Below, in pieces: positions 5,023 through 50,555 of a stretch of 64,000 nt of DNA. Position 1 is the first letter of the stretch. Every line of letters begins with the position of its first letter. Origin of the DNA: Methylocystis rosea SV97 (GTDB lineage Bacteria; Pseudomonadota; Alphaproteobacteria; Rhizobiales; Beijerinckiaceae); assembly GCF_000372845.1 (NCBI RefSeq), contig NZ_KB889963.1:372001-436000 (forward strand). The letters are read 5' to 3'. Both the position numbers and the translations under genes were made by a program. The notes below the pieces were generated by a model. It ran no database searches, was not told where the DNA came from, and saw only the letters and a program-made list of their open reading frames with translations.

Positions 5023-7641
5023 TTACAGCGTTCGCTTGATTTCCTCGACGCGATAGCACTCGATGACGTCGCCGGCGCGCATGTCCTGGTAGTTCTCGAA
5101 AGCCATGCCGCATTCCTGTCCAGCGGCGACTTCCTTGACCTCGTCCTTGAAGCGCTTGAGCGTCGAGAGCTTGCCCTCATGCACGACGACATTGTCGCGG
5201 ATGAGCCGCACATTGGCGCCGCGCTCGACATTGCCATCCGTCACGCGGCAGCCAGCGACCTTGCCGACCTTCGAAATATCGAAGACCTCGAGGATCGTTG
5301 CATTGCCCAGCAGGGTTTCGCGCAGCGTCGGCGCCAGCAGGCCGGACATCGCGCCCTTCACGTCATCCACGAGATTGTAGATGATGTTGTAGTAGCGAAT
5401 CTCGATGCCGGCGCGTTCCGCTGCGTCGCGCGCCTCTTTGTGCGCGCGCACGTTGAAGCCGATGACCGCGGCGTTGGAGGCTTCGGCGAGCGAAATATCG
5501 GATTCCGAGATGCCGCCGACGCCGGCATGCACGATGCGCGCCCCGACCTCTTCGGTGCCGAGCTTTTCGAGCGCCGCGGCGATAGCTTCGACCGAGCCCT
5601 GCACGTCGCCCTTGATGACGAGCGGGAATTCCTTGCGGCCCGCCGTCTTGAGCTGGCTCATCATGTCGGAAAGCGAACCGCGCGCCGAACCGCCGCGCGC
5701 GGCGATCTTGTCACGCTTCATCCGCTCGCGATATTCGGCGATCTCTCTGGCGCGGGCTTCCGACTCGACGACGGCCACGCGGTCGCCGGCTTCCGGCGTG
5801 CCGCTGAAACCCAGAATCTCGACAGGGAAACTCGGGCCGGCTTCGGGACGCGCGGCGCCCTTGTCATCGAGCAGCGCGCGCACGCGGCCCCATTGGGTTC
5901 CGGCGACGACAATGTCGCCCACGTGAAGCGTGCCGCGCTGAACCAGCATGGTCGCCACAGGCCCTCGACCCCGGTCGAGCCGCGCCTCGATGACCGTGCC
6001 TTCGGCGGCGCGATCGGCGTTGGCCTTGAGGTCAAGCACCTCGGACTGAAGCGCGATCAGCTCGAGCAGCTTGTCGAGATTGGTCTGCTGCTTCGCCGAG
6101 ACTTCGACTTCGAGCGTGTCGCCGCCCATGGATTCGACCTGCACTTCATACTGCAGTAGTTCGGTGCGCACCCGCTCAGGCTTGGCGTCCGGCTTGTCGA
6201 TCTTGTTGATGGCGACGATCAGCGGGACATGAGCGGCGCGGGCGTGATTGATCGCCTCAATCGTCTGCGGCATGACGCCGTCGTCAGCCGCGACGACCAG
6301 CACCACAATGTCCGTGACCTTGGCGCCGCGGGCGCGCATCGCCGTAAAGGCGGCGTGGCCGGGCGTGTCGATGAAGGTGATGGCGTGACCGTTGGGGGCC
6401 GTCACCTGATAGGCGCCGATATGCTGGGTAATGCCGCCGGCTTCGCCGGAGACGACATTGGCCTGGCGAATGGCGTCGAGCAACGACGTCTTGCCGTGGT
6501 CGACGTGGCCCATGATCGTGACGACAGGCGGCCGCGCCGTGAGATCGACGTCGACGTCGGGCGTGTCGAACAGGCCTTCCTCGACGTCGGATTCGGCGAC
6601 GCGCTTGACCGTGTGGCCCATCTCTTCCGCGACGAGCTGCGCCGTATCAGCGTCGACGACGTCGTTGATCTTGTGCATCTCGCCCTGCTTCATCAGCAGG
6701 CGGATGACGTCGACCGCGCGCTCCGACATGCGGTTCGCGAGTTCCTGAATGGTGATCGTCTCGGGAAGGATCACCTCACGCAGAACTTTTTCCTTCTGCT
6801 CCACCTGGCCGCGGAACAACCGCTGCTGGCGGCGCTTGAAGGAGGCGACGGAGCGCGTCCGTTCTTCGTCGGTTCCGGCCGTGGCGGTGGAGACCGTCAG
6901 CCGGCCGCGATCTTTCATGGCCCCGCCGCGAGAGGGGGTCGGGCGCGGCGGCGCGGGCGGCGTGAAGCCGCCGATGGTGCGCACGGGCGGTCGTCGCACC
7001 GCGGTTTCGCCCTCTGTGCGAATGGGCGCGCGGGCGCCGGCCGGACCAGGCGCGGCAGCCCCGACGGAACTGCGCGGCGCCGCAACGCCGGCGGCGTCAC
7101 CGGGCAGCCGGCGACGCGCTTCTTCCTCAGACTTGCGTTTCGATTCGGCTTCGCGCGCGAGACGCTCTTCTTCCTCGCGCTTGCGCGCGTCGGCGGCGGC
7201 GCGCTCGGCGTGCTCGCGCTCCTCGCGTTCGTTGCGCGCCTTGGCGTCGATTTCCGCGCGGCGGCGATCGTCCTCTTCGCGCGATTTCGCATCGACGAGC
7301 GCGCGGGCGCGCGCCTCGCGCTCCTCATCGGTCAACGCGCGCAGCACAACGCCCGAGCCGGAGCGCGGCGCAGGCGCCGAACGCTGTGTCTCGGATCTCG
7401 GCGCGGCCTTCGGCGGCGGCGCCGGCGGCTCCGCAATCGGGGCCGTCGCGCCGGCCGGCTTCGCCGGCTCGACGTGTCCGGGCGCGCGGCGCTTCACCTT
7501 CTCGACCACGACCACTTTTGAGCGGCCATGGGAGAAGCTCTGACGGACCATGCCGTGCTCGACCGGTCGTTGCTTTAAGTGCAACGTCTTCGACGGCGCG
7601 ACGGTCAGAGTTTTGTCGCCGCTGTTCTCGCCTTCGCTCAT
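5023..7641 (-). CDS. infB: Translation initiation factor IF-2
   Basis: GTPase that brings initiator tRNA to the ribosome. It has 872 residues with the long charged N-terminal region usual in alphaproteobacteria (Arg/Glu/Ala-rich, about residues 100-190). An IF2_N module follows (TIQELANRM), then the G domain near residue 380 with GHVDHGKTS (G1), DTPGHAAF (G3) and NKIDKPDA (G4). Domains II-IV end in [10 protein letters not shown]. It starts at ATG 7641, 37 nt after the ylxR-like gene. Confidence 0.97.
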
Positions 7642-32835: not shown

Positions 32836-34098
32836 TCAGATTCGCGCGCCGGAAACGGCGCCCCAGGTCGTGCGCCAACGCGTCTTCACGAAGATCAAAC
32901 CGACGAGGCCGAGCAGCGCAAGGAAACCGAAGAAGACGAACCCGGCGGTGAAGCCGCCCGTCGCGCCTTTGGAGTAGGCGAGCGTCTTGGCGAGGAAAAA
33001 TCCGCCAAAACCGCCTGCGGCGCCGACGAGGCCGGTCATCGCGCCGATCTCCCGGCGAAAACGCTGCGGCAGCAATTGAAACACCGCGCCATTGCCCATG
33101 CCGAGCGATAACACGCCAACAGAGAACAGCGCCACCGCGGCAAAGGCGACGGGCGGCAACTGCATCAGACCCCATCCCGCAACGCCTTTCGCAGGGGCCG
33201 GTCCCACTGGCAGAAAGGCGACGGCGAAATAGCAGGCGGAGACGAGAACGAAGAGGAAGCACAACGTCTTCACCCCGCCGATGCGGTCCGCGATATAGCC
33301 GCCGACGGGCCTGAAACCCGAACCGAAAGCGACGATCAGCGCGACCATGAGGCCCGCGGCGACTCCCGTGGCGTGATACTGCGTCGTGAAATAGAGCGGA
33401 AGCGCCGAAGCAAGACCAACGAAGCCGCCGAAGGTGATGAAGTAGAAAAACATGAACCAGCGGCTGTCGGAGTCCGCGAGCATTCTGCCGTAGTCGGCAA
33501 GAGCAATCGTCGTTTTGCCGCCGGGCGCGTCCTTGGCGGCCAGCGAATAAATCAGCAGCACCAAAACCATCAGCGCGAGCAGTACGCCATAGACGGTCTG
33601 CCAACCGTAAGCCTCGGCGATCGAGGGCGCAAAAAGCGTGTCGAGCACGACCCCCATATTGCCGGCGCCGGCGATGCCCATCACCAGGCCCTGATATTGC
33701 GGCGGATACCAGCGGCCCGCCTGCGGCAGGGCGACGGCGAAGGACGCGCCGGCGAGCCCGAGAGACAGACCGAAAAGCGCGATGGCGATCGAACTACTCA
33801 GGCCAAAGACGCACACCAGAGATACCGCGAACATCACGATCGCCTGCGCGAGGATGCCCGTCATCTTCGGGCCGATCGCGTCGGCGAGGAGGCCGAGCGG
33901 AACGCGAAAGAAGGCGCCGCCGAGAACTGGAATCGCGACGAGCGAGAGTTTGTCCTCGACGGAAATCGGCATGCCTTTGGTGATGTAAATCATCAGCGGG
34001 CCGAGTGAGACCCAAGCCATGAAGCTGATATCAAAGTAGAGGAAGGCCGCAAGCAACGTCGGCCAATGACCGGCCTTTTTAAAATCCGACAGTTTCAT
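32836..34098 (-). CDS. narK: Nitrate/nitrite transporter, MFS NarK family
   Basis: 420 residues with 12 predicted membrane helices. Nitrate-signature-like GIAGAGNMGVVLDTLFAP and a second Gly/Asn-rich GMGNGAVFQLLPQRFRREIG in the C-terminal half identify the NNP subfamily. It imports nitrate for the reductase. Start ATG 34098 has AAGGAG about 8 nt upstream and lies inside the end of nasA (20-nt overlap), so translation is coupled. Confidence 0.93.
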   Translation of the reverse strand: MKLSDFKKAGHWPTLLAAFLYFDISFMAWVSLGPLMIYITKGMPISVEDKLSLVAIPVLGGAFFRVPLGLLADAIGPKMTGILAQAIVMFAVSLVCVFGLSSSIAIALFGLSLGLAGASFAVALPQAGRWYPPQYQGLVMGIAGAGNMGVVLDTLFAPSIAEAYGWQTVYGVLLALMVLVLLIYSLAAKDAPGGKTTIALADYGRMLADSDSRWFMFFYFITFGGFVGLASALPLYFTTQYHATGVAAGLMVALIVAFGSGFRPVGGYIADRIGGVKTLCFLFVLVSACYFAVAFLPVGPAPAKGVAGWGLMQLPPVAFAAVALFSVGVLSLGMGNGAVFQLLPQRFRREIGAMTGLVGAAGGFGGFFLAKTLAYSKGATGGFTAGFVFFGFLALLGLVGLIFVKTRWRTTWGAVSGARI

Positions 34099-36859
34099 CA
34101 GATGCTCCTTCTTTCATGTTTGGCTTGTCCTCTCGCGCGAAATCGATCGCAGACTCGGCGGCGAGAGAAATCTTGATGAGACGTTGAATTTCCGGTTGGC
34201 AGGAGCCGCAATTGGAGCCTGCGCGAGTGGCCTTCCCGACGTCGAGCGCCGAGCAGCAGCCTTGTTGAATTGCCGCTTCGATTTGCTTTTGGCCGACGCT
34301 AAAGCATGAACAGACGAGCGGACCGTCATTCGTCAGTTGTCGGCTCGAGCGACCGGACAACAGCGACAGCCGTTCTGACTGATCAAGACGATCGCGGGCG
34401 AAGAGTTCGAGCGCCAGGTCCCAGGATTGTGCAACGGGAGACAAAGCCCAGATGAGCGTTGCGCGGTCCCCGACGAAGGCTGCCCCCGAGAGAAGACTCT
34501 TGGTTTCGTCAATCAATTGTATGACGTCTTCGCTCGCGGCAGCTGTGCGGATGACGTCTGTCCAGGCGTCATCCGACAGGTCGGCGGCGACGCGATAGCC
34601 GTAGCCATTGGCGACGGCGACGCGCGCCCACCATACGCCCTCGGGCAACGTGATCGAGCCGCGCGAGAGGAGGAAGCCCTGGCGCGCGAAGCGCAGAGGC
34701 GTGATGATGGCAGGCGTCGCCTTCGATTCCGGCTGTCCCGAGAAAGGATCGACACAGGGCGCGACAAGTGCGCCAATGCGCGCATCCGCGGCGGTTTCAT
34801 CGGTCCAGTGAATCGGCGCAAAAATATGCCCGGCAGGCTGTCTTACAGTCGCCACTGCGCGCAAGACGCAACTCCCATACGGCGTCGCGACGCGGGCGAA
34901 ACCGCCGTCTTCTACGCCAAAGTGTTCAGCGTCCGACGGGTGAACCTCGACAAAGGGTTCAGGAAGATGCCGCGCAAGGCGAGGGCTCGCGCCAGTGCGC
35001 GTCATGGTATGCCATTGTTCGCGAATGCGGCCGGTGTTGAGCCGAAGCGGAAAGTCCTTCGTCAATGTGGTCGCCAAGTTCGGCTTCGCCGGCGCAATGA
35101 ATTTCGCGCGTCCATCTTGCGAGATGAAGCCCCCTTCAGCGAAGAGGCGCGCTCGGCCCTTGCCGTCGCCCTCATCAATCGGCCACTGCGTCGGCTCGAG
35201 CGCGTCATATTGGGCGTCGCTTAAGCGCGCGAGACCGCCAATATCGAAGGCCCGCGTTGCGTCATTCTCGAAAGCCGAAAGCGCGGCGTGTTCGCGAAAA
35301 ACATCTGCAGATGAGCGATAGGCGAAGCCTGCAAAGCCCATGCGTCGCGCGACATCGGCGAAGAGCGACCAGTCGGCGCGAGTCTCTCCCGGCGGGGGTA
35401 GAAAAGCGCGCTGACGCGAGATGCGGCGCTCCGAATTCGTCACCGTGCCGCTCTTTTCGCCCCACGCCTGCGCCGGCAGGAGCAAATGCGCGCCGCTATT
35501 GATCGTGTCGTTCGACGCCACATTGTCGGAGACGATGAAGAGTTCGAGCTTGCCGAGAGCGGCGCGCACGGCGTTGGCGTTTGGAAGCGACGCCGCCGGA
35601 TTGGTGCCGACGACCCACAGCGCCTTGATGTCGCCGCGCGCGATGGCGTCAAACATCTGCACCGCCTTCAGCCCCTCGCGCGTCGCCATTCGTGGCGCAT
35701 TCCAGAATCGGCGAACGCGGTCGATGCTTTCGATCTCAAAACCCATATGCGCGGCGAGGCTATTCGCAAGTCCGCCGACTTCGCGCCCGCCCATGGCGTT
35801 GGGCTGGCCGGTCAGGGAGAAGGGCGACGCGCCAGGTTTGCCGACTCGGCCCGTCGCGAGGTGACAATTAATGATGGCGTTGACTTTGTCGGTCCCCTGC
35901 GCCGACTGATTGACGCCCTGCGAGAAGCAAGTGACCGTGCGCGGCGTCTGCGCGAATAATTCGAAGAAGGACGCGATGTCGACCTCGCGCAGTCCGGTCG
36001 ACGCGGCAGTCCCTTCAATCGACGGCGCGATGGTCTGTGCGGCCTTCAGGGCCTGCGTCAGCCCCGTCGTAAGACGGCGGATGTAATCATCGTCGAAGGC
36101 GCCGAGCTTCGCGAGATAGACAAGCAGGCCGCAAAACAGCGCCTGATCCGCGCCCGGCGCGATTTGCAGAAACAGGTCGGCGCTTTCAGCCGTCGGGGTG
36201 CGGCGCGTGTCGATGACGACGAGCTTGGCGTTGCGCTCCTCCTTGTTGCGCATGATGCGCTGGAAGAGCACTGGATGACACCAGGCGGCGTTGGAGCCGA
36301 CGAGAACGATGAGGTCGGCTTGGTCGAGGTCTTCGTAGCAGCCCGGCACGACGTCGGCGCCGAAAGCGCGCTTGTGGCCCGCGACCGTGGAGGCCATACA
36401 CAGGCGCGAATTTGTGTCGACATTGGCCGAGCCGATAAAGCCCTTCATCAGCTTGTTGGCGACGTAATAATCTTCGGTCAGCAACTGCCCCGAGAGATAG
36501 ACCGCGACGGCGTCAGGACCGTGCTCATCGACGATGCGGCGAAATCCGTCCGCGGCTTCATCCAGCGCCGCATCCCAGCTCACGCGCGCGACGGCGCCGT
36601 CGGCCTGTCGGCGCATCGGATGGAGAAGGCGCCCTTCGAGCCCGAGCGTTTCCCCAAGCGCCGATCCCTTTGAGCAGAGCCGCCCAAAATTTGCCGGATG
36701 CGCCGGATCGCCAATCACGTCGGCGCCATTTGCGGACGCGAGCACGCCGCAACCGACGCCGCAATAGGGGCAGGTCGAGCGCGTCGTCGTCGCCTGAACA
36801 GGCGCGATGCTGTTGTGCAGATTTTCAAGCGCCGCCGGCGCCAGGACTTCATCGAGCAT
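34079..36859 (-). CDS. nasA: Assimilatory nitrate reductase, molybdopterin catalytic subunit
   Basis: Reduces nitrate to nitrite in the cytoplasm. About 926 residues from ATG 36859 (GAGG 6 nt upstream; the frame continues to TTG 36871). N-terminal [4Fe-4S] cysteines CPYCGVGC (C30, C33, C37) and C62, bis-MGD-binding body, and a C-terminal BFD-like [2Fe-2S] domain (CSCFSVGQKQIEAAI; GSNCGSCQPEIQRLI). This matches NasA/NarB-type enzymes with a fused electron-entry domain. The upstream reductase ends just before the start, and narK overlaps the end. Confidence 0.96.
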   Translation of the reverse strand: MLDEVLAPAALENLHNSIAPVQATTTRSTCPYCGVGCGVLASANGADVIGDPAHPANFGRLCSKGSALGETLGLEGRLLHPMRRQADGAVARVSWDAALDEAADGFRRIVDEHGPDAVAVYLSGQLLTEDYYVANKLMKGFIGSANVDTNSRLCMASTVAGHKRAFGADVVPGCYEDLDQADLIVLVGSNAAWCHPVLFQRIMRNKEERNAKLVVIDTRRTPTAESADLFLQIAPGADQALFCGLLVYLAKLGAFDDDYIRRLTTGLTQALKAAQTIAPSIEGTAASTGLREVDIASFFELFAQTPRTVTCFSQGVNQSAQGTDKVNAIINCHLATGRVGKPGASPFSLTGQPNAMGGREVGGLANSLAAHMGFEIESIDRVRRFWNAPRMATREGLKAVQMFDAIARGDIKALWVVGTNPAASLPNANAVRAALGKLELFIVSDNVASNDTINSGAHLLLPAQAWGEKSGTVTNSERRISRQRAFLPPPGETRADWSLFADVARRMGFAGFAYRSSADVFREHAALSAFENDATRAFDIGGLARLSDAQYDALEPTQWPIDEGDGKGRARLFAEGGFISQDGRAKFIAPAKPNLATTLTKDFPLRLNTGRIREQWHTMTRTGASPRLARHLPEPFVEVHPSDAEHFGVEDGGFARVATPYGSCVLRAVATVRQPAGHIFAPIHWTDETAADARIGALVAPCVDPFSGQPESKATPAIITPLRFARQGFLLSRGSITLPEGVWWARVAVANGYGYRVAADLSDDAWTDVIRTAAASEDVIQLIDETKSLLSGAAFVGDRATLIWALSPVAQSWDLALELFARDRLDQSERLSLLSGRSSRQLTNDGPLVCSCFSVGQKQIEAAIQQGCCSALDVGKATRAGSNCGSCQPEIQRLIKISLAAESAIDFAREDKPNMKEGASDETVGF

Positions 36860-36867
36860 GAGCGGCC

Positions 36868-38457
36868 TCAATAGACGTCCTGTTGATAGCGCCCGCTCTT
36901 CTTGAGCTGCGCGACGAAGGCGACCGCTTCATCGGCGTTGCGGGCGCCGAATTCGGCGACGACGTCGACAAGCGCGCGTTCGACATCCTTGGCCATGCGC
37001 TGCGCATCGCCGCAGACGTAAAAATGCGCGCCTTCCGCCAGCCACGCCCATAATTCACGCCCGGACTGGCGCATGCGGTCCTGCACATAGAATTTTTCTG
37101 CGCCGTCGCGCGACCAGGCGAGCGACAGACGCGTGAGCAGACCTGTCGCCTTCATCGTTTCGAATTCGTCGGCGTAGAAGAAATCGCAGGCTGAACGCTG
37201 GTGTCCAAAGAAGAGCCAGTTCCTGCCGGGCGCGCAGGTCGCCGCGCGCTCCTGCAGAAAAGCGCGAAACGGCGCAACGCCGGTGCCAGGCCCGATCATG
37301 ATGATCGGCGTCGTGGGATCGTCTGGCAGCGCGAAGCCATGCGCCGACTGCACATAGACCGGAAGGCTGTCGCCTGGCGCGATGCGTTCGGCCAGAGAGG
37401 TCGAGGCGACGCCAAGACGCTTTCGCTTGCCGACGACATATCGAACCGCGTCGACAGTCAGCGAGAGGCGTCCCGGCGTCGCCTTGGGGGAGGAGGAGAT
37501 GGAATAGAGGCGCGGCTGCAGCGGCTCCAGCGCTTCGACAAAGGCTTCCGGATGTGGCCGCGCGCCTGGAAATTTCTGCAGCACGGAGAGCACGTCGAGC
37601 GTTGCCGCGTCGCCGTCAGGATCTTTGCCCTGCGCCAGCAAACGCGCCTTCTCGCGCTGCGCGCCGCCGGTAATGAAGGAGATCAACTCGAAAAGCGCAT
37701 CAGGCGCCGGAGACAGCGAAACGTCACTGAGCAAGGCGTCGCGAAGAGTTTTGTCGCGCACCGGCGTCACATGCGAGGCGCCGAGCATGGCGATGATCTG
37801 GTCGACGAGGCCGAGATCATTTTTGGGAAACACGCCGAAGCTGTCGCCAACTTTGTAGCTGAGTTCGGTGGCGCCGAGATCGAACTCGATATGCCAGGTG
37901 TCTTTTTCCGAACCGTCCTTGTTCAGCCGACGGCGAGAAGCGAACGTCGCCCGTGCCGGATTATCCCGCGAGCAGCCGGGCGCCGCAACGTTAGTGGGTT
38001 CAACTTGCGCAACAATGGCCGGCGCCGGCGAAGGCTGATCCAGCTCCGCCGCAAGCGCCTTCAGCATGCGCGCCGTGTCCTTGCCGCCGGGCGCGCAGAG
38101 ATTGAGGCGCGCTTCCTTTCTAGTGGCCAGAGCCTCCGCATAGGTCTCGCAAATGTAGCCGCACTGGCCGCAGTCCTGTTGCGCCATGGCCGCCATCAGG
38201 CGGCGACGCAGCGGACGGCCTTGGGCAAGCTGCATGCGCGATTCGAGCGCCAGCGTCTGGTCATGCCACGGCGCCTCGCCATCGTCGTTATCGGCGCCAG
38301 CCATTACAGCGGCGTTCGCTTCTGGCGTGAGCGGCGTGATCGAGCTGTCATCGGGCGCGGCGAAGCCGGCAAAAAAACCGCTGAGCCAGGCGCGCTGCTC
38401 GGGCGTGAAAGGCGCGTTCGGCGGAATGAGAAAAGGCGGGGAGGACTGATGAGTCAC
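36868..38457 (-). CDS. FAD/NADPH reductase (CysJ-type) with an N-terminal Cys cluster
   Basis: 529 residues. There is no flavodoxin (FMN) domain. The N-terminus has FTPEQRAWLSGFFAGF (17-32), also seen at the NirA N-terminus. A Cys cluster C96-x2-C99-x3-C103-x17-C121 (DCGQCGYIC, NLCAPGG) looks like a [4Fe-4S] site. The rest is the CysJ/CPR-type FAD and NADPH module (PRLYSISSSPKA; GPGTGVAPFRAFLQERA). It probably feeds NADPH electrons to NasA and/or NirA. GTG 38457 overlaps the nirA stop by 4 nt. Annotation pipelines usually call it sulfite reductase subunit alpha; context argues for nitrate/nitrite. Confidence 0.88.
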   Translation of the reverse strand: MTHQSSPPFLIPPNAPFTPEQRAWLSGFFAGFAAPDDSSITPLTPEANAAVMAGADNDDGEAPWHDQTLALESRMQLAQGRPLRRRLMAAMAQQDCGQCGYICETYAEALATRKEARLNLCAPGGKDTARMLKALAAELDQPSPAPAIVAQVEPTNVAAPGCSRDNPARATFASRRRLNKDGSEKDTWHIEFDLGATELSYKVGDSFGVFPKNDLGLVDQIIAMLGASHVTPVRDKTLRDALLSDVSLSPAPDALFELISFITGGAQREKARLLAQGKDPDGDAATLDVLSVLQKFPGARPHPEAFVEALEPLQPRLYSISSSPKATPGRLSLTVDAVRYVVGKRKRLGVASTSLAERIAPGDSLPVYVQSAHGFALPDDPTTPIIMIGPGTGVAPFRAFLQERAATCAPGRNWLFFGHQRSACDFFYADEFETMKATGLLTRLSLAWSRDGAEKFYVQDRMRQSGRELWAWLAEGAHFYVCGDAQRMAKDVERALVDVVAEFGARNADEAVAFVAQLKKSGRYQQDVY

Positions 38458-40208
38458 GCCATGCTCTCCTCATTGACAAGACGGCGCAGCGTCTCGATGT
38501 CGTGACGGCGCGCGAAGCCGACAAAGGTTTCGTCCGCGTTCGCGCGGTTCTTTCGATAGGCGCGGAGTATTTTCGCCACCATTTCCGGCGCCTTTTCCTC
38601 CTTCACATTTTGATAAAGTTCGGAGGCAATACGCGCGTCTTCCGCAAAGCCGCCGCCGACGAGAATGTGATAGCCCTCGACCGTGTCGCCCTCGTCATTC
38701 ACCGGCACGCGCGCGCCGATCAGTCCGATGTCGCCGATGTAATGCTGCGCGCATGAGTGGTGGCATCCGGTGAGATGAATGTTGATCGGCGTGTCGACCG
38801 GCGACGCGTTTTCGCAGTGCGCCGCGATTTCTTCCGCATGCCGCTTGGTGTCAGCGGCGGCGAAACGGCAGCCTGAACTGCCCGTGCAGGCGACGAGCCC
38901 GGCGCGAATCGGCGAGGCTTGCGTCGAAAGACCGAGCGCCTCGATCATCGCGACAGCTTCGGCAATCTGTGTGTCGCTAACGCCCGTGATCAGCACATTC
39001 TGCCAGACCGTGAGACGCAGGCCGCCGTCGCCGAATTGGCGCGCGATCTCGGCGAGACCGCGCGCCTGCTCGGGGGTAAAACGACCGACCGGCAACATTA
39101 CGCCGATCCAATTGAGTCCCGTGTCTTTTTGCGGATGCACGCCGATATGCGCCGCGCGATCCTGACGCGGGCGAGTGGCGATCGCGTCCGTGCCGATGCG
39201 AAGCAGCTTGCGACCCAGTTTTTCTTCGACGGCGGCGAGAAATTTGTCGAAGCCGAAAGCGTCGAGCACATATTTGAGCCGCGCCTTGGCGCGGTTGGTG
39301 CGATCGCCATGCTCGATGAAGACCCGCAAAATTTTGTCGGCGACCTCCACCGCTTCGTCCGGCGGCACGATCACGCCCGTGTCGCGCGCAAAGTCCTTGT
39401 GACCAGTAATGCCGCCGAGCGCGAGGCGGAAATAAACGCCCGGCGCGACACCATGCGCATCGTTCACGTCAACGGCCTGAAAGCCGATGTCATTGGTGTC
39501 TTCCAACGCGCCGATCAATCCCGCGCCGTCAAAGGCGATGTTGAACTTGCGCGGCAGTCCGTAAAGCGAGCGATCGTTGAGGATGTGATGATGCATGGCG
39601 CGCGCATAGGGGCGCGTGTCGATCAGCTCCTGCGGATCGACGCCGGCGGTCGGCGTGCCGGTGATGTTGCGGATATTGTCCGCGCCGGAGCCCTTGCTCC
39701 AGAGTCCGAGATCCTGAACCGCCTCCAAAATATTCGTGGCGTTTTTCGGCGCGATCTCGCGAATCTGGATATTGGCGCGCGTGGTCACATGCAGATAGCC
39801 GCCGCCGTAATTTTCCGCGAGATCCGCAAGCCCGGCGAACTGCCAATGCGTCAGTGCGCCATTGGGAATGCGCAGCCGGCACATATAGGAGTCCTGCGCC
39901 GGCGCGACATAGAAGAGTCCGTAATAGCGCCAACGGAAATTGTCGGCGGGCTTTGGCGGCGCGTTCTCTTTCGCTTGAGCGACAAGGCGCGGCCAGGCGT
40001 CGAATGGATGCTCCTCGCGCTTCCATTTTTCCTGATCGGTCAGCTTGCCGCCTACCGCGACGACGCGGTCCTGCGCAGATAAATGCGCGGCGTCGGGCCC
40101 CATCGGCTGCGCTGGCGAGGGCGGCGCCTTTTGTCCACCGCGCGCGGAAAAGCCGGCTGCAAAGCCTTCGAGATAGCGCTTCTGGTCGAGCGTGAAATCG
40201 ACGGACAT
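38454..40208 (-). CDS. nirA: Assimilatory nitrite reductase, sirohaem-[4Fe-4S] type
   Basis: Reduces nitrite to ammonium with six electrons. 584 residues with two ferredoxin-like half-domains (YMCRLRIPNGALTHWQ; NWIGVMLPVGRFTPEQ) and the sirohaem/[4Fe-4S] cysteines CTGSSGC (about 440-446) and CHHSC (about 480-484). The N-terminus FTLDQKRYLEGFAAGFSA resembles that of the next gene. A sulfite reductase role is possible from sequence alone, but the nas context favours nitrite. It starts 1 nt after the upstream FAD gene ends. Confidence 0.93.
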   Translation of the reverse strand: MSVDFTLDQKRYLEGFAAGFSARGGQKAPPSPAQPMGPDAAHLSAQDRVVAVGGKLTDQEKWKREEHPFDAWPRLVAQAKENAPPKPADNFRWRYYGLFYVAPAQDSYMCRLRIPNGALTHWQFAGLADLAENYGGGYLHVTTRANIQIREIAPKNATNILEAVQDLGLWSKGSGADNIRNITGTPTAGVDPQELIDTRPYARAMHHHILNDRSLYGLPRKFNIAFDGAGLIGALEDTNDIGFQAVDVNDAHGVAPGVYFRLALGGITGHKDFARDTGVIVPPDEAVEVADKILRVFIEHGDRTNRAKARLKYVLDAFGFDKFLAAVEEKLGRKLLRIGTDAIATRPRQDRAAHIGVHPQKDTGLNWIGVMLPVGRFTPEQARGLAEIARQFGDGGLRLTVWQNVLITGVSDTQIAEAVAMIEALGLSTQASPIRAGLVACTGSSGCRFAAADTKRHAEEIAAHCENASPVDTPINIHLTGCHHSCAQHYIGDIGLIGARVPVNDEGDTVEGYHILVGGGFAEDARIASELYQNVKEEKAPEMVAKILRAYRKNRANADETFVGFARRHDIETLRRLVNEESMA

Positions 40209-40209
40209 T

Positions 40210-41439
40210 TCAGGCGGCCTCTTGCATCGGCGGGCCGAACATCAATTCGTCGCGCATAGATGAAACTTTCGCGCCGGAACGGATGAGATCGAGGAGATCG
40301 GCCGCGCCGCTCGTATCCCCGATCAGGATCGCGCCAACGAGCCTGTCGTCACGCACGACAAGCTTGCGATAGAGACCCATGCGCGGGTCCTTGCAGACGA
40401 TACGGCGCGCATCGCCTTCGCCGAGATAATCGCCGGCCGAGAAAACGCGCACGCCGGACACTTTTAAATTGGTGGAGACGACGCTGCCGCCATAGGAGGC
40501 GCCTTGTCCGGCGAGCCGCATGGCGAGCACGCGCCCCTGCTCATAGGCCGGCTCGACGAGCCCGTAACAAGCGCCGTGATGTTCGGCGCACTCGCCGATG
40601 GCGAAAACGTCGGATTCGCTTGTCTTCAAGCCATCGTCGACCTTCACGCCCCGCCCGACGTCGAGACCCGCCTGTCGCGCGAGGTCAGCGTTGGCCTGAA
40701 TGCCGACGGCAAAAATCACGGCGTCGGCCGGAATCTTTTGTCCGTCCGCGAACTCTACATTCTCGACTCGGCCAGAGCCGCTGATGCGCGTCGTATTGGC
40801 GTTGAGAAGCACGCGCACGCCTTTCTCTTCGACGAGGCGGCGCAGGATGTCGGCGCCGGCCGCATCGAGTTGGCGCTCCATCAGCCGATCCATGACATGG
40901 GCGAGCGTGACGTCGACGCCGCGGCGCGCCAGGCCATAGGCCGCCTCCAGTCCCAGAAGGCCGCCGCCGATGACGAGCGCGCGCATCTCCTTTCCCAGCC
41001 GCGACAGCGCCTCGACGTCCCGCACGTCGCGAAACGTATGAACGCCCGGAAGATCAGCGCCTTCGATCGGCAGCCTTGCCGCGCGCGAACCCGTAGCGAG
41101 CACGAGTTTCGAGTAGTCGACGCTCTCGCCATTATCGAGGATGAGACGCCGCGCCGCGGCGTCGATCTTGATGACCTTGCGGCCGCTCAGAACCTCGACG
41201 CCGGCGACGCGCCACCATTGTGCCGGCTTGAGTTCGATGTCATCGACCGACAATTCCCCGGCGAGCACCGAAGACAGCAGCACGCGATTATAAGCAAGTC
41301 GCGGTTCGTCTCCGATCACGAGAATGTCGTATCGACCCGGCGCCCGGTTCGTCAGCTCCTCGACGAAACGCGTAGCCGCCATGCCGGCGCCGACGATGAC
41401 AAGCTTTTCGCGACTTCTGCAATCCTGCAATACAGTCAT
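40210..41439 (-). CDS. NirB-like FAD-dependent NAD(P)H oxidoreductase
   Basis: 409 residues matching the N-terminal FAD/NAD half of NADH-nitrite reductase NirB: KLVIVGAGMAATRFVEEL (FAD), LVIGGGLLGLEAAYGLARRG (NAD), and DVFAIGECAEHHG. The sirohaem half of NirB is absent; nirA follows instead. It could pass NADH electrons to NirA or NasA. It is the first gene behind the sigma-54 promoter and ANTAR-type leader at 41557-41631; ATG 41439 has only a weak Shine-Dalgarno. Confidence 0.9.
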   Translation of the reverse strand: MTVLQDCRSREKLVIVGAGMAATRFVEELTNRAPGRYDILVIGDEPRLAYNRVLLSSVLAGELSVDDIELKPAQWWRVAGVEVLSGRKVIKIDAAARRLILDNGESVDYSKLVLATGSRAARLPIEGADLPGVHTFRDVRDVEALSRLGKEMRALVIGGGLLGLEAAYGLARRGVDVTLAHVMDRLMERQLDAAGADILRRLVEEKGVRVLLNANTTRISGSGRVENVEFADGQKIPADAVIFAVGIQANADLARQAGLDVGRGVKVDDGLKTSESDVFAIGECAEHHGACYGLVEPAYEQGRVLAMRLAGQGASYGGSVVSTNLKVSGVRVFSAGDYLGEGDARRIVCKDPRMGLYRKLVVRDDRLVGAILIGDTSGAADLLDLIRSGAKVSSMRDELMFGPPMQEAA

Positions 41440-41556
41440 GTTTCGACTCTGCTGAACGGCCGAACGGTCCGGTCACAGGTCGCTTTGCCTTACGGGTGAT
41501 GAAAACGGGCAAGACGACCAAAGCGCGACGCAAATTGCGAAATCGCTTCTGTGACG

Positions 41557-41605
41557 GAGCCCGACTTTGGGCTCGTTCCGGCGGACCGGCGGTCGTCGTT
41601 GACCG
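41557..41605 (-). promoter_or_regulatory. Tandem hexaloop hairpins, probable NasT (ANTAR) binding leader
   Basis: On the minus strand two stems stand in tandem: CGGTCAACGACGACCG (41605-41590, 5-bp stem, loop AACGAC) and GAGCCCAAAGTCGGGCTC (41574-41557, 6-bp stem, loop AAAGTC), with a 15-nt linker. Both loops are six bases with A at position 1 and G at position 4, the published signature of ANTAR-protein RNA targets. NasT, an ANTAR protein, is encoded upstream at 42912-43484. No canonical terminator follows: a 12-bp imperfect stem (41478-41519) lacks a U tract, and GCCCG-TTTT (41510-41501) could pair with the second hairpin's 3' arm. Confidence 0.7.
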
Positions 41606-41615
41606 ATGGGGTGAT

Positions 41616-41631
41616 TGCACTTTTCGGGCCA
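41616..41631 (-). promoter_or_regulatory. Sigma-54 promoter of the nir/nas operon
   Basis: TGGCCCGAAAAGTGCA on the minus strand matches the -24/-12 consensus TGGCACG-N4-TTGCW at all but two positions, with GG and GC exactly 10 nt apart. Transcription should start near 41605, the first base of the first hexaloop hairpin. Confidence 0.75.
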
Positions 41632-41716
41632 GAGGCCCCGGCGTGGTTTTTCCCCGGGAATGCGGGCGTTTGGCGCTGACCGACGGCAGCCGGCGGGATT
41701 TTGCGGCGCCGAATGC

Positions 41717-41735
41717 TTAGGCGCGAGGCGCCTAA
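41717..41735 (-). terminator. Perfect hairpin after nasS, possible transcription end
   Basis: An 8-bp perfect stem (TTAGGCGC / GCGCCTAA) with a 3-nt loop lies 31 nt after the nasS stop and before the next sigma-54 promoter. No U tract follows on the minus strand, so it may be a Rho-dependent end or an RNA-stabilising stem. Confidence 0.4.
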
Positions 41736-41766
41736 CGGCTGGCGCTTTTGAACAGAGGTTCAGCGC

Positions 41767-42915
41767 TCATAGGCGCTGTCCGATATCGAAGCCGGCGAGA
41801 TAAGCTTCATAGCTGCGGTCGTCGAACGAGGGTCCCGCAAAAGCCCCGATTTCGCGCTGAACATGCGGCCCACCGATCGCAGCGTCGAAAAGATCTGGGC
41901 GCAGAACGCTCTTCGCGCGATCGGCCATCTCTGGCGAATGGCGCGTCTGCCCCCAGCGCAGCATCTGCGCATAGACCCATTCGGCTTGCCGTGGATCCGG
42001 CCGCATGGCGCCGTCTCGTCCAATGATCAGGTAGTTGGCGTCGCTTCGTTCGTCGCGCGCCTTGACGCGCAAATGGCCGGTGAGCACGCGCCCGATAATC
42101 TCGGCGTCGACGCCGACATATTCAGGGCGCGAGAGAATGTGCGAAACCTCGCCTAGGTCTTGCGGCTCGTCGACGAAGGCGGCCCCCCTGTCGAGCGCGC
42201 GGATCAGCGCCGCAACAAGATCAGGATTATCGTTGGCGAAGCTCTCGCGCAGAGCGAGGACTTTCTCGGGCGCGCACGCGAAAATCTCGCAGCCGAAATG
42301 CAGAATGACCCCAACGCCGGCGTCGACCGCGACAGAACTCCAGGGCGCGCCGACGCAAAAACCGTCGAGCTGACCGCGCGCCAGATTTTCCACCATGTAG
42401 GGCGGCGGCAGTGCGATCAGCCGCAGGTCTTCATCCGGATCGACGCCGCCTTCCGCCATCCAGTAGCGCAGCTGATAATTGTGCATGGAAAATGGAAAGG
42501 TCATGCCGAAGGTCAGGGGCTCACGTCCCTCGGCCCGTCGCCGCGCGACGAGCTTGGCGAGCGCGCGCGCGGTTTGCGCCGGATGCGCGACCTCGCCTTC
42601 CGCGGCGAGTTCGGCATAAAGCGCCGTGGACACCGCGATCGCATTGCCGTTCATCGCGAGATTCATCGGCGCGACAAGCGGGACTCGCACATGGCCCAGT
42701 CCGAGCGTGGAAGCGACCGCCATCGGCGCCAGAAGATGCGCCGCATCGAAACGGCCAATGGCGAGCTTGTCTCTAATATTCGCCCACGACGCTTCGCGGA
42801 TCAGTTCGACGTCGAGACCTTCCGCCTTGGCGAATCCCTTATGCACGGCAATTAACAGCGCGGCGGCGTCGACGAGCGGAATGAACCCGATTTTCACATG
42901 CGCCTCGCCGGTCAT
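41767..42915 (-). CDS. nasS: Nitrate-sensing NasS (NrtA-like periplasmic-protein fold, no signal peptide)
   Basis: 382 residues of the CmpA/NrtA nitrate-binding family (KIGFIPLVDAAALLIAVHKG; FDAAHLLAPMAVASTLG). It lacks a signal peptide, consistent with NasS, the cytoplasmic sensor that holds NasT inactive until nitrate or nitrite binds. Its ATG overlaps the nasT stop by 4 nt. It is the last gene of the outer-membrane protein-nasT-nasS operon. Confidence 0.9.
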   Translation of the reverse strand: MTGEAHVKIGFIPLVDAAALLIAVHKGFAKAEGLDVELIREASWANIRDKLAIGRFDAAHLLAPMAVASTLGLGHVRVPLVAPMNLAMNGNAIAVSTALYAELAAEGEVAHPAQTARALAKLVARRRAEGREPLTFGMTFPFSMHNYQLRYWMAEGGVDPDEDLRLIALPPPYMVENLARGQLDGFCVGAPWSSVAVDAGVGVILHFGCEIFACAPEKVLALRESFANDNPDLVAALIRALDRGAAFVDEPQDLGEVSHILSRPEYVGVDAEIIGRVLTGHLRVKARDERSDANYLIIGRDGAMRPDPRQAEWVYAQMLRWGQTRHSPEMADRAKSVLRPDLFDAAIGGPHVQREIGAFAGPSFDDRSYEAYLAGFDIGQRL

Positions 42916-43484
42916 TTAAACATCTCCGCCGCAGTGATGACCGAGCGTGCAATTTCGATAATCTTTTTGTTTTCGCGCATGGCCGCGCCGCGCATCAATT
43001 TGTAGGCGTCTTCTTCGGAAAACTTCTTCGCCTTCATCAATATGCCTTTGGCGCGTTCGATCGTCTTGCGCTCCTCAAGATCGGATTTGGCCTGTTCGAG
43101 TTCATCCCGAAGCTTAGAGAAGGCATTGAACCGCGACACGCACAGATCGAGGATCGATTTGATGCGCTCCTTTTTCAACCCGTCGACGATATAGGCCGAG
43201 ACGCCAGCATCGACCGAGGCCTGAATCGACGCCGTATCGCTCTGATCGACAAACATGGCGATCGGCCGACGCACCGCGCGACTGACCTGAAACATTTGCT
43301 CAAGCGTATCGCGCGAAGGATTCTCGAGATCAATCAGGATCACGTCGGGGTCGCTGGCGTAGATGTGCTTCAGCAGATTGTGCATCTCGCTGATGCGCTC
43401 GACCTCTGTGAAGCCGGCTTCACGCAGTCCCTCCTCGAGGATCAGCGAGCGGATGGGGCTTTCGTCGACAATGACGATCTTCAA
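42912..43484 (-). CDS. nasT: NasT, receiver-ANTAR RNA-binding antiterminator
   Basis: A receiver-like domain (IVIVDESPIRSLILEEGLRE; Asp in DVILIDLENP) followed by an ANTAR domain (ERKTIERAKGILMKAKKFSE; KLMRGAAMRENKKIIEIA). It binds hexaloop hairpins in nas leader RNAs and prevents termination when NasS releases it. I place the start at TTG 43484, giving 190 residues beginning with the receiver strand, the usual NasT length. The frame extends to GTG 43580, but those 32 residues look non-coding. Confidence 0.9.
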   Translation of the reverse strand: MKIVIVDESPIRSLILEEGLREAGFTEVERISEMHNLLKHIYASDPDVILIDLENPSRDTLEQMFQVSRAVRRPIAMFVDQSDTASIQASVDAGVSAYIVDGLKKERIKSILDLCVSRFNAFSKLRDELEQAKSDLEERKTIERAKGILMKAKKFSEEDAYKLMRGAAMRENKKIIEIARSVITAAEMFK

Positions 43485-43581
43485 TTCACGGCGTCCAGTG
43501 AGCGCATGTATGGGTCGCGCCAGCGGCGGCGCATCGCCGTCAGTCTCCGCGATCCGCCCGCCGGGCCGCGACCAACGCACG

Positions 43582-46146: not shown

Positions 46147-47856
46147 ATGACTTCCATTGGGCTGGCGCAAATCGCCATCGTCCTGCTTGCCGTTATTGTC
46201 GCCGCTATTCCGCTCGGCAATTACATAGCCACCGTCTTAGCGGGCGAGCGCAGCCTGCTCTCTCCCGTGCTCTCGCCCCTTGAGCGCGTCTTCTACAGAC
46301 TCGCCGGCGTTGATCCAGCGCGCGAGCAAAACTGGCTTGCCTACGCGATGTCCATGCTGGCCTTCAGCGTCGTTGGATTTGCGTCGCTCTACGCCCTGCA
46401 GCGGCTCCAGGCCTATCTGCCGCTCAATCCTCAGGGCTTTAGCGGGGTTCCCGCCGACCTCGCCTTCAACACGTCGATGAGCTTCGTCACCAACACCAAT
46501 TGGCAAAACTACGGCGGCGAGTCGACGATGAGCCACCTGACGCAAATGCTCGGCCTCACGGTGCATAATTTCGTATCCGCCGCCACCGGCCTTGCGATGG
46601 CGTTTGCGCTGGTGCGCGGTTTCTCGCGCGCCGAATCGCCGACCGTCGGCAATTTCTGGGTCGACCTCACCCGTTCGACGCTTTACGTGCTCCTGCCGCT
46701 CTCGATCGTCGTCGCGCTCGCCCTCGTCGCTCTCGGCGTGCCGCAGACGCTTCAGGGATCGGTCGAAGCGACGACGCTGGAGGGCGCCAGGCAGATGCTC
46801 GCCATAGGCCCGGTCGCCAGCCAGGAGGCGATCAAGGAGCTCGGCACCAATGGCGGCGGCTTCTTCAACGCCAATTCCGCGCATCCTTTCGAGAGCCCGA
46901 ACGCCCTTTCCAACATGCTGGAAATCTGGGCTCTGCTTGTCATCCCCTTCGCCACGGCCTTCGCCTTTGGGCGTGCGGTCTTCGACTATCGACAAGGTCG
47001 CGCGATCGCCATCACGATGATGATCGTGCTCGTCGCGGGCGTATCAGTCGCTTACTGGGCCGAGGCAGGCGGCAATCCGTTGCTGACGGAGATCGGCGTC
47101 GATCCTTCGCCTGGCAATATGGAAGGCAAGGAGGTGCGCTTCGGCCCTGCGATGAGCGCGCTATTTGCCGCGTCGACCACGGGCACGAGCTGCGGCGCCG
47201 TCAACGCCATGCATGACTCGTTCATGCCGCTCGGCGGTCTCGTTCCCTTGTTCAACATGCTGATGGGCAGCATCGCGCCGGGCGGCGTCGGCGCCGGGCT
47301 CTACGGGTTTCTCGTGTTGGCGATCATCGCGGTTTTCATCGCCGGCCTCATGGTCGGCCGCACGCCGGAATATCTCGGCAAGAAGATCGAGGCGCGCGAG
47401 ATGAAGCTCGCGATGCTCGCGGTGCTGATCTATCCGCTCAGCGTTCTTGCCTTCACCGGCGTTTCGGTCATGCTTCAGACCGGTCTCGCCAGTCTCAACA
47501 ATGCCGGCCCGCACGGGCTTTCCGAAATCCTTTACGCATTCGCCTCGGCGACGGATAACAACGGATCGGCTTTCGCAGGCCTGACGGGCAATACGCCTTG
47601 GTACAACACGACGCTCGGCGTCGCGATGCTGCTCGGACGCTTCGCCTTCGTCATTCCCGTATTGGCGATCGCCGGCGCGTTCGCTGCGAAAAAGAAGGGC
47701 GCTGCTTCAGTCGGCACCTTCCCCACGCATGGGCCCCTCTTCATCGGCCTGCTGCTCGGCGTCATCGTCGTCCTCTATCTGCTGCAATATTTTCCGGCGC
47801 TCGCGCTCGGCCCAATCGTCGAGCATTTCGCGCTGCTTGCAGGAAAAACCTTCTAA
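46147..47856 (+). CDS. kdpA: Potassium-transporting ATPase subunit A
   Basis: Potassium channel-like subunit of the high-affinity Kdp pump. 569 residues and about ten membrane helices. The selectivity-filter loops are visible: [32 protein letters not shown] and [19 protein letters not shown]. It precedes kdpB by 12 nt. Confidence 0.97.
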
Positions 47857-47868
47857 GGAGCTTGTTAG

Positions 47869-49917
47869 ATGTCGCATAAAGTGGCCGCTCCCGGTCTGTT
47901 CGACGCCGCGATCACAAAGCGCGCCGCCGTCGACGCCTTCAGGAAGCTCGATCCGAGACGCCTTGCCCGCAATCCAGTGATCTTCGTCACGGAAGCCGTG
48001 TCGGCGGTGGTCACGGCGTTCTATGTGCGCGATCTCCTCGCGCAGAACGGCGCCGCCTTTTTCTCTGGCCAGATCGCCGCCTGGCTGTGGTTCACCGTGC
48101 TCTTCGCCAATTTCGCCGAAGCGGTGGCGGAGGGACGCGGAAAGGCCCAGGCGGACGCCTTGCGCAGGACACGCAGCGATTCGCACGCCAAACGATTGAT
48201 TGATCCGCAAGACAAGAGCGGGATGAAGGACGTCTATGAAGGCGTGTCGGCGCTCGATCTCAAGCTCGGCGACGTGGTGCTGGTCGAAGCGGGCGACCTC
48301 ATCCCCGGCGATGGCGAAGTGATCGAAGGCGTCGCCTCGGTCAACGAGTCGGCGATCACAGGCGAGTCCGCGCCGGTCATCCGCGAGGCGGGAGGCGACC
48401 GTTCAGCCGTGACCGGCGGCACGACGGTTCTCTCCGACTGGATCAAGGTGAAGGTTACCGCCGCGCCGGGTTCAACCTTCATCGATCGGATGATCGCGCT
48501 CGTCGAGGGCGCCCAGCGGCAGAAAACGCCGAACGAACTCGCGCTGTCGATTCTCCTGTCCGGGCTGACGATCATTTTCTTGATTGTCTGCGTGACGCTT
48601 TGGCCGCTCGCGATCTACTCTGGCGCGGCGATTTCGGTCACCGTGCTGATCGCGCTGCTCGTCTGCCTGATCCCAACGACGATCGGCGGACTCTTGTCGG
48701 CGATCGGCATCGCCGGCATGGACCGGCTGATCCGCTTCAACGTCATCGCGACCTCGGGTCGCGCGGTGGAGGCGGCGGGCGACGTCGACACGCTGCTTCT
48801 CGACAAGACCGGAACGATCACTTTCGGCAATCGCATGGCGGATGAGTTCATTCCTGTCGAGGGCGTCTCGGAGCATGCGTTTGGCGAAGCCGCTCTGCTT
48901 GCTTCGCTGGCGGATGAAACGCCGGAGGGCCGCTCAATCGTCGCTCTCGCGAAAAGCGCCCTTGGCTTTTCGACGCCGGACCTCGGCCAGGAAGCGCAGA
49001 TCGTTCCCTTTTCCGCGCACACGCGCATTTCGGGGGTCGATCTTCCTGGACGTATGCTGCGCAAGGGTGCCGTCGACGCCGTCGCGGCGCAAGTCAAGTG
49101 CGTTCCTGTCGATTTCGAACGCGCCGTCGAACGGATTTCGCGCGCCGGCGGCACGCCTCTGGCCGTTTCAGAAAACGGCAGGCTGCTCGGCGTCATTCAT
49201 CTCAAAGACATCATCAAGCCCGACATCAAATCGCGCTTTGCCGCCTTGCGCGCCATGGGCATCAAAACGGTGATGGTCACCGGCGACAATCCGATCACCG
49301 CCGCGGCGATCGCCGGAGAAGCGGGAGTCGACGACTTCATCGCGCAAGCCAAGCCCGAGGATAAACTCGCCTATATCCGTAAGGAGCAGCAGGGCGGCCG
49401 CCTGATCGCCATGTGCGGCGACGGCACCAATGACGCGCCGGCGCTCGCTCAAGCGGACGTTGGCGTCGCCATGCAGACCGGCACCCAGGCGGCGCGCGAA
49501 GCCGGCAATATGGTCGACCTCGACAGCGATCCGACGAAACTCATCGAGATCGTCGCGATCGGCAAACAGCTGCTGATGACGCGCGGGTCGCTGACCACCT
49601 TCTCGATCGCCAATGACGTCGCCAAATATTTCGCGATCATTCCGGCGCTGTTTGTCGTCGCCTATCCCGAACTGGAGGCGATCAACATTATGAAGCTCGC
49701 CTCGCCGCAGTCGGCCATCCTCTCGGCGGTGATCTTCAACGCGCTCATCATTATCGCGCTCATCCCGCTCGCGCTGAAGGGCGTCCCGTACCGGCCCGTG
49801 GGCGCCGCCGCTTTGTTGCGACGAAATCTGCTGATCTATGGACTCGGCGGTCTGATCGCGCCCTTCATCGGCATCAAGCTTATCGATCTCGCCGTCTCGG
49901 CCGCTCATCTCGCATAA
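47869..49917 (+). CDS. kdpB: Potassium-transporting ATPase subunit B
   Basis: P-type ATPase catalytic subunit, 682 residues. Phosphorylation site [11 protein letters not shown] (D312), actuator [12 protein letters not shown]-domain, and the hinge [19 protein letters not shown]. Seven membrane helices. It couples ATP hydrolysis to K+ movement through KdpA. kdpC starts 11 nt downstream with AGGAG. Confidence 0.97.
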
Positions 49918-49928
49918 GGAGCCCTCAG

Positions 49929-50528
49929 ATGCTCTCCCAAATTCGTCCGGCGGTCGTCATGATCGTTCTTTTCGCCGCGCTGACCGGAATCGTCTATCCG
50001 CTCGCGATCACCGGCGTTGCGCAACTCGCCCTGCCGGCGCAGGCCAATGGAAGCGTGATCGAACGCGATGGAACAGTGATCGGCTCGGCGCTGATCGGAC
50101 AGAACTTTGCCTCCGATCGCTATTTTCACGGCCGGCCTTCGGCGACGACAGGCCCCGACCCAGCTGATCCTTCGAAATCCATCGACGCGCCCTACAACGC
50201 ATCGAACTCGATGGGCTCCAATCTCGGGCCGACGTCGAAGAAGCTTGTCGACCGCGTCAATGCGACGATTGAGGCGGAATTCGCCGCCGGCCGCGTCGAC
50301 GTCGTCGCCGCCGACGCCGCGACGACGTCCGCCTCCGGCCTCGATCCACATATTTCGCCGCAGTTCGCGCTGGCGCAGGCGGGAGCCGTCGCCAAGGCGC
50401 GCAATCTCAGTGAATCGCAAGTGCGCGCCGTTGTCGAAGCGAATCTCGAAGGGCGCGTTCTTGGCGTGATCGGCGAGCCGCGTGTAAATGTGCTCTTGCT
50501 GAATTTGGCTCTTGATCGCTTACAATAG
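49929..50528 (+). CDS. kdpC: Potassium-transporting ATPase subunit C
   Basis: Periplasmic-facing subunit of KdpFABC. 199 residues with one N-terminal membrane helix ([20 protein letters not shown]) and the family motifs [42 protein letters not shown] and [14 protein letters not shown]. Ends 27 nt before kdpD. Confidence 0.96.
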
Positions 50529-50555
50529 AGGTGACGCCCGAGAAGGTAGACGTCT

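Follow-up and report, generated by a model that had tools for sequence, protein, structure and literature searches.

In NasS-NasT systems, NasS frees the ANTAR protein NasT in the presence of nitrate, and in Klebsiella the Ntr system and NasR act in series. RNAs targeted by ANTAR proteins carry two tandem hexaloop hairpins, with A at position 1 (A1) and G at position 4 (G4) of the loop (PMC3369931, PMC8934654) and a C-G pair closing each loop (PMC7496416). In the EutV system, lengthening the linker by 20 nt abolished antitermination (PMC8934654). In actinobacterial ANTAR RNAs that act on translation, the dual hairpin itself contains the Shine-Dalgarno sequence or the start codon, and binding represses (PMC8164766). 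In Paracoccus denitrificans, nas mRNA is present with glutamate, NasB, NasG and activity are present only with nitrate, and a nasS mutant makes the protein without nitrate; a third, translational level of control was proposed, without an RNA mechanism (PMC5424462). In the same work nas mRNA was missing from a nasT mutant, and mutation of a hairpin named HI had an effect in a transcriptional fusion (PMC5424462); this speaks for control at the level of mRNA in that relative.

The leader analysed here, from Methylocystis rosea SV97, shares with the ANTAR antitermination leaders (EutV in eut, NasR in nasF, NasT in nas and nos) a pair of hexaloop hairpins, P1 and P2, whose loops are closed by C-G pairs and have G4 and, always in P1 and in most cases in P2, A1; it also has a nitrogen operon behind it and nasS-nasT adjoining. 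It differs from them in having no terminator that overlaps P2, and the hairpin that meets competition is P1, not P2. As in the actinobacterial RNAs, control would fall on the ribosome-binding site, but the distance from P2 to the Shine-Dalgarno sequence is about 105-110 nt, and activation by NasT would come about through refolding. The leader also recalls translational riboswitches, which sense a small ligand bound by the RNA, in having two exclusive predicted folds that hide or open the Shine-Dalgarno sequence, whereas its sensor would be an RNA-binding protein. We found no description of an ANTAR protein opening a distant Shine-Dalgarno sequence in the parts of the open-licence literature at hand, which is weak evidence of absence.

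A sigma-54 site and paired hexaloops before the nas operon

The window, by which we mean the whole 64,000-nt stretch of DNA analysed, carries these genes in minus-strand order, with a 327-nt gap between nasS and the oxidoreductase gene:

42912..43580, minus strand: nasT, response regulator with an ANTAR domain (Pfam PF03861, PF00072)
41767..42915, minus strand: nasS, nitrate sensor of the NasS-NasT pair, overlapping nasT by 4 nt (Pfam PF13379)
40210..41439, minus strand: gene 1 of the nas operon, an FAD/NAD(P) oxidoreductase (FAD gene) resembling the N-terminal half of NirB (Pfam PF07992, PF18267)
38454..40208, minus strand: nirA-type nitrite reductase (Pfam PF01077, PF03460)
36868..38457, minus strand: CysJ-like flavoprotein (Pfam PF00667, PF00175)
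34079..36871, minus strand: nasA-type assimilatory nitrate reductase (Pfam PF00384, PF01568, PF04324)
32836..34098, minus strand: narK-like MFS transporter (Pfam PF07690)

Beyond nasT, the open reading frames at 46147-53255 (plus strand) are presumably, by likeness, the potassium-transport genes kdpA, kdpB, kdpC and kdpD. An inverted repeat, TTAGGCGC-CTC-GCGCCTAA (41717-41735, minus strand), stands 3' of nasS and upstream of the sigma-54 site, and may mark where the nasTS transcript ends or serve as a regulator site; a partly similar repeat (TAGGCG..CGCCTA) occurs in Methylocystis sp. MJC1. The leader opens with four elements:

41616..41631, minus strand: sigma-54 -24/-12 promoter, TGGCCCG-N4-GTGCA (GG-N10-GC in 28/28 distinct leaders; RpoN gene present)
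41590..41605, minus strand: P1 hairpin, CGGUC|AACGAC|GACCG, candidate first NasT docking hairpin at the predicted transcript start (loop A1, G4 and C-G closing pair in 28/28)
41578..41589, minus strand: linker hairpin, CCGG-UCCG-CCGG (94.0% of cells paired in alignment A3, described below)
41557..41574, minus strand: P2 hairpin, GAGCCC|AAAGUC|GGGCUC, candidate second NasT docking hairpin (covariation; loop conserved)

Sigma-54 promoters follow the consensus GG-N10-GC at -24/-12. The original prediction had read a site with two mismatches here, and the site at 41631-41616 (minus strand) indeed matches 10 of 12 consensus letters with GG and GC intact; among the 28 distinct leaders every one has such a site, with 9-11 of the 12 letters. 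The predicted start on the first base of P1 is likewise borne out in its spacing, since that base lies 12 nt past the C of the -12 element in the window, and the offset is 12 nt in 23 leaders, 13 in four and 11 in one (n=28). A sigma-54 start at P1 is very probable as a prediction. The promoter would, judging by the site, give a nas transcript starting from or beside the first base of P1 under nitrogen limitation. The genome has one RpoN match (PF04552).

The two hexaloop hairpins (AACGAC and AAAGTC, each with A1 and G4) and the 15-nt linker (41589-41575) had been described exactly, and NasT, named as the ANTAR protein next door, is the only ANTAR protein encoded in the genome. P1 and P2 recur in 28/28 distinct leaders in near-fixed register, and the C-G closing pair is present in both hairpins of all of them; the P2 loop has G4 in 28/28 and A1 in 24/28 (G instead in L123, L124, L132 and L133). 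The linker hairpin, if folded, leaves 3 nt between P1 and P2, as against 3-4 nt in 6/7 nrtA-first pairs and 7 nt in the remaining one (L060), which fits the sensitivity of EutV to linker length. With tandem A1/G4 hexaloops, C-G closing pairs and an ANTAR protein in the genome, the leader reads, by its sequence, almost certainly as an ANTAR leader of NasT type, to which NasT is predicted to bind. Folding of the leader alone exceeded shuffles only moderately (z -2.4; 4/200 shuffles equally good), and Rfam at gathering scores found a tRNA in the window and no ANTAR element.

A covariance model of P1-linker-P2, built from seven leaders including the window's, returned this leader as the single strong site in the 3.9-Mb genome (79.1 bits, next 19.2 bits). 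The search for other NasT targets, run up to E 10, gave 33 model matches, of which only the window's scored above 19.2 bits; the nine weaker matches that we read (L103-L111) gave no convincing dual A1/G4 pair. The model matched 35/397 family genomes at E 1e-5 and 8/397 genomes of the order at E 1e-6, the window's genome and G017 being in both sets. In one locus of the order search (L232) P1 was not seen by pattern, and two matches of the family search (L139, L140) with none of seven nas proteins nearby were taken as chance. Among FAD homologues across the order, 29 non-window loci gave no credible dual hairpin, with minus-strand loci mis-oriented, so that this is no proof of absence.

For comparison we fetched 40 nasT loci of the window's family; of the 29 loci fetched from the family search with the covariance model, a set that leaves out seven further weak matches, 27 have the FAD gene directly downstream. 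The sample comprised 31 leaders, including the window's and three further loci, of which three were identical duplicates, leaving 28 distinct leaders with 156-200 nt from P1 to the start codon (169 nt in the window). Hand-picked strands from these 28 served for reading loops and closing pairs only, not covariation. Alignment A3 was built with MAFFT, without structure, from 25 leaders, L065, L067 and L069 being too diverged. At L119 a second copy of the leader stands 100 nt from the first with one N in between, which probably reflects an assembly gap bridged by repeated sequence; the gene-adjacent copy was used. In L133, L135 and L136, nasS and nasT are absent from the 3-kb locus, so the leader tracks the enzyme operon and not nasTS. 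In G017, nasS (locus L037) and the nas operon with its leader (L133) are on separate contigs, and the gene after nasS is, by likeness, presumably a transposase.

Terminators in sister leaders

We scanned leaders for a stem that is followed by a U-tract and whose 5' arm overlaps the 3' arm of an A1/G4 hairpin. The scan left out 22 Rhodobacterales loci whose next gene best matched a NasS-like protein and 18 loci in which neither the next gene nor nasS had been identified. The original prediction had remarked that a conventional terminator is not visible, and 0/28 window-type leaders have one overlapping P2. By the same scan, overlapping terminators occur in 18/23 NasT leaders that precede nrtA in the window's family, in 16/21 nrtA-first Rhodobacterales leaders and in 0/24 nasA-first Rhodobacterales leaders. 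When overlap was ignored, any terminator-like match was present in 0/28 window-type, 21/23 nrtA-first family, 17/21 nrtA-first Rhodobacterales and 3/24 nasA-first Rhodobacterales leaders. Finding terminators in the sister leaders indicates that the scan works and that the window's class is without the usual platform. The window's genus also has an nrtA-first leader with an overlapping terminator (L035), and genome G058, with a single ANTAR protein, has both an nrtA-first leader with a terminator (L049, on C7) and an FAD-first, two-fold leader (L136, on C11).

The earlier guess for release, that the 3' arm of P2 pairs with a downstream GCCCG-TTTT, found no support. In the window the two strands could form five G-C pairs, but GCCCG with TTTT is confined to the window among the 28 distinct leaders; its counterpart is GCCCGTTCTC in L113 and GCCCATTTGC in L114, and GCCC itself is missing in L126 and L129. 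Neither the search of 41400-41800 on the minus strand nor the 28-leader scan gave a terminator-like site. We consider it extremely unlikely that this pairing forms a terminator.

Two crossing predicted folds between P1 and the ribosome site

The strands of the two predicted folds, which we call A and B, are:

41591..41597, minus strand: LR2 5' strand GACGACC, from the P1 loop and 3' arm (97.1% of cells paired in A3; in the RNAalifold consensus)
41550..41555, minus strand: 5' strand GUCACA of helix M, fold A (86.7% of cells paired; double changes in 2/6 pairs)
41513..41519, minus strand: anti-P1 strand GGUCGUC, which forms LR2 with P1 in fold B and HB with GCGACC in fold A (from the MFE structure, A3 and RNAalifold)
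41472..41483, minus strand: GCGACCUGUGAC, which supplies the 3' strands of HB and M to fold A; in fold B its CGACCUGUGA serves HS as anti-Shine-Dalgarno strand
41465..41471, minus strand: LR1 3' strand CGGACCG, pairing with linker CGGUCCG (41588-41582) in fold A (double changes in 3/6 main-helix pairs and one flanking pair)
41444..41455, minus strand: HS 3' strand UCAGCAGAGUCG with the Shine-Dalgarno-like AGAG at 41450-41447 (double changes in 8/10 HS pairs)

The minimum free energy (MFE) structure of the window's leader is fold A, with P1, P2, M (GUCACA:UGUGAC), HB (GGUCGU:GCGACC) and LR1 (CGGUCCG:CGGACCG); that of L126, L128, L129 and L133 has LR2 (GACGACC:GGUCGUC) instead. RNAalifold, run on the 25 leaders of A3, returned LR2, the linker hairpin, P2 and the top of HS unprompted, which is fold B. 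Fold A leaves the Shine-Dalgarno sequence (a weak AGAG in the window) open, and fold B breaks P1 and closes HS over it. The two folds are mutually exclusive, since LR2 would cross both M and LR1, and HS draws on strands that M and HB also use.

Changes on both sides of a pair occur in A3 in 14/35 pairs of fold A (shuffle mean 5.8) and 13/27 pairs of fold B (shuffle mean 4.4); for each fold, 0/500 shuffles scored as high, and slid structures scored below both. As plain shuffles ignore kinship, we used a tree-aware null, in which substitutions were simulated along a FastTree tree with their number and type kept per branch (a custom script, not R-scape). Of 2000 such nulls, the double-change score was reached by 0 for HS, 1 for P2, 31 for inner HS and 43 for LR1; the null was not exceeded at 5% by M (137), P1 (502), the linker hairpin (775) or HB (893).

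LR2 is near-invariant, with no double changes in A3; in L136, a single case that A3 does not register, P1 is AAAGGCGAUCC and the anti-P1 strand GGUCGCC, and the match is still 7/7 counting G-U. Taken as a plain 7-nt match, LR2 was equalled between 3 and 357 times in 500 shuffles, depending on which of 14 leaders was examined. In isolated 3' ends, pairing of the Shine-Dalgarno strand exceeded the shuffle mean in 17/17 and lay beyond 95% of shuffles in 5/17. Duplex energies, compared with swapped partners and shuffles, put LR2 below shuffles in most leaders, were mixed for M and HS and uninformative for LR1; this comparison was replaced by the alignment counts. Taken together, the comparison of leader sequences supports the predicted elements, their conservation, and the covariation of HS and P2.

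We next consider energies, computed with ViennaRNA as the unpaired probability of the Shine-Dalgarno region when either P1+P2 or LR2+P2 is enforced. On going from P1+P2 to LR2+P2 in the window, this probability fell from 0.60 to 0.25 and HS rose from 0.00 to 0.94; the two ensembles have energies of -70.1 and -67.2 kcal/mol, respectively. With P1+P2 enforced, the region was more open in 22/25 leaders and less so in one, and HS was higher with LR2 in 23/25; the Shine-Dalgarno sequence hardly opens in L126, L129, L134 and L136 (whose two states lie about 12 kcal/mol apart), and L137 is reversed. The loss of M when LR2 is enforced follows from topology and proves nothing, and comparing the free ensemble with P1+P2 enforced is uninformative within the genus because the free fold there is fold A already. 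As to whether a competing helix opens the Shine-Dalgarno sequence in dependence on the NasT site, the observations are 137 and 43 of 2000 nulls for M and LR1, an invariant LR2, and energetic coupling in 22/25 leaders and in 3/5 of a second family (below).

Equilibrium folding of transcripts of increasing length gives P1 first. As soon as GGUCGUC is exposed, LR2 reaches a probability of at least 0.59 in 23/25 leaders (both helices are near zero in L136 and L137), and after transcription has passed the 3' strand of M, P1 is more probable than LR2 in 24/25. At full length the window's leader settles at equilibrium into fold A, with P1 at 0.99, and LR2 is ahead of P1 in only 7/25 leaders. An off state would need kinetic trapping, because the full-length equilibrium favours fold A.

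These observations can be assembled into a switch as follows. P1 and P2 would be docking hairpins for NasT, released by NasS when nitrate is present. GGUCGUC, once transcribed, may invade P1 to form LR2; the anti-Shine-Dalgarno strand would then be free, HS would close over the ribosome site and the operon would be off. If NasT captured P1 and P2 first, LR2 would be barred, GGUCGUC would pair with GCGACC, and M and LR1 would form, barring HS and leaving the ribosome site open. NasT would thus be a translational activator, and effects on mRNA, via Rho or decay, could follow. We favour such a translational switch coupled to P1 with a probability of about 0.55; the coupling is computed, whereas NasT binding and the direction of switching are what we infer. 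The sequences suggest that the broken hairpin is P1, not P2, and that the hidden element is the Shine-Dalgarno sequence. The most informative part of the leader is its 3' half with the hairpin over the Shine-Dalgarno sequence, outside 41557-41631, the segment first annotated.

Two other accounts bear on the same data. NasT may control transcription through an unconventional stop, either a U-poor hairpin (the LR2-closed domain or HS) or Rho, with NasT preventing termination. The characterised NasT systems are described as antitermination (PMC3795266, PMC6759348, PMC5424462) and the P. denitrificans nasT mutant has no nas mRNA (PMC5424462), but U-tract terminators number 0/28 here against 21/23 in the nrtA-first sister leaders by the same scan, and HS, which covers the Shine-Dalgarno sequence, covaries most strongly. 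On balance we hold transcription control to be unlikely, at about half the weight of the translational switch or slightly less. Less likely still, HS, M and LR1 could be standing structures of the mRNA, serving stability or a fixed translation rate and unswitched by NasT, which would act on P1 and P2 otherwise. That LR2, the sole link between P1 and the ribosome site, is without covariation in A3 speaks for this. Against it stand the crossing of LR2 with M and LR1, the strands that HS has in common with M and HB, the retention of GGUCGUC in A3 amid diverging flanks, and energies that couple P1 to the Shine-Dalgarno sequence in 22/25 leaders.

Control in series by sigma-54 and NasS/NasT on one transcript, as originally proposed, is well supported, as the promoter feeds P1, NasT adjoins and RpoN is present, but it is already described in kind, general nitrogen control followed by NasT control having been reported for nas genes (PMC5424462). 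If the translational switch is real, nitrogen status, nitrate and translation are joined on one short transcript, and the docking site has been kept while the terminator was swapped for a ribosome-site switch, which would make the expression platform exchangeable.

A second family and the Rhodobacterales leaders

Five leaders of a second family (f28) were found by the order search after the model had been framed; the gene behind one of them encodes an NMT1-like binding protein. TGGCACG stands in front of 5/5, with GC in the -12 element of three and GT in L227 and L228 (read by eye, unscored). In 5/5 both hairpin loops carry A1 and G4, the anti-P1 strand matches 7/7 in four and 6/7 in one, and LR2 exceeds P1 in 5/5 truncated transcripts. 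With P1+P2 enforced, the Shine-Dalgarno sequence opens more in 3/5, equally in one and with the reverse sign in one. RNAalifold on the five returned P1 and P2, and not LR2 or HS.

The P. denitrificans nas leader (L149) is like the window's in its adjoining nasTS, its dual hexaloops and control by Ntr and NasT in series (PMC5424462), but it has other sequence and genes, and its P2 can itself pair with the Shine-Dalgarno sequence. The LR2/HS arrangement was not found in it, nor did the scan find a terminator. RNAalifold on 21 nasA-first Rhodobacterales leaders paired P2 directly with the Shine-Dalgarno sequence (GCAUCGGAGC in the leader of L149 at 5865-6050), and this pairing is near-invariant. 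It was equalled by 14/1000 P2 shuffles in L149 and by 11 to 403/1000 over 16 leaders; with P1+P2 enforced in L149, GGAG opens only from 0.19 to 0.30, and a local hairpin over the Paracoccus Shine-Dalgarno sequence was not above shuffles. We treat the pairing of P2 with the Shine-Dalgarno sequence in Paracoccus as a lead. The HI hairpin is placed 137 bp from the start codon (PMC5424462) and, by distance, should be P2 of L149, at 136 nt.

A single NasT could serve two platforms, a terminator before nrtA and a Shine-Dalgarno switch before the enzyme operon, with translational activation extending to Paracoccus and explaining why P. denitrificans has nas mRNA without Nas protein before nitrate. 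This wider proposal is tentative, and we give it somewhat less than even odds; if true, it is a candidate answer to the unexplained translational 'level 3' of nitrate assimilation in P. denitrificans. Finally, several nasA-first Rhodobacterales leaders carry an extra hexaloop hairpin behind P2, such as CCGC|GACGAU|GCGG in L149.
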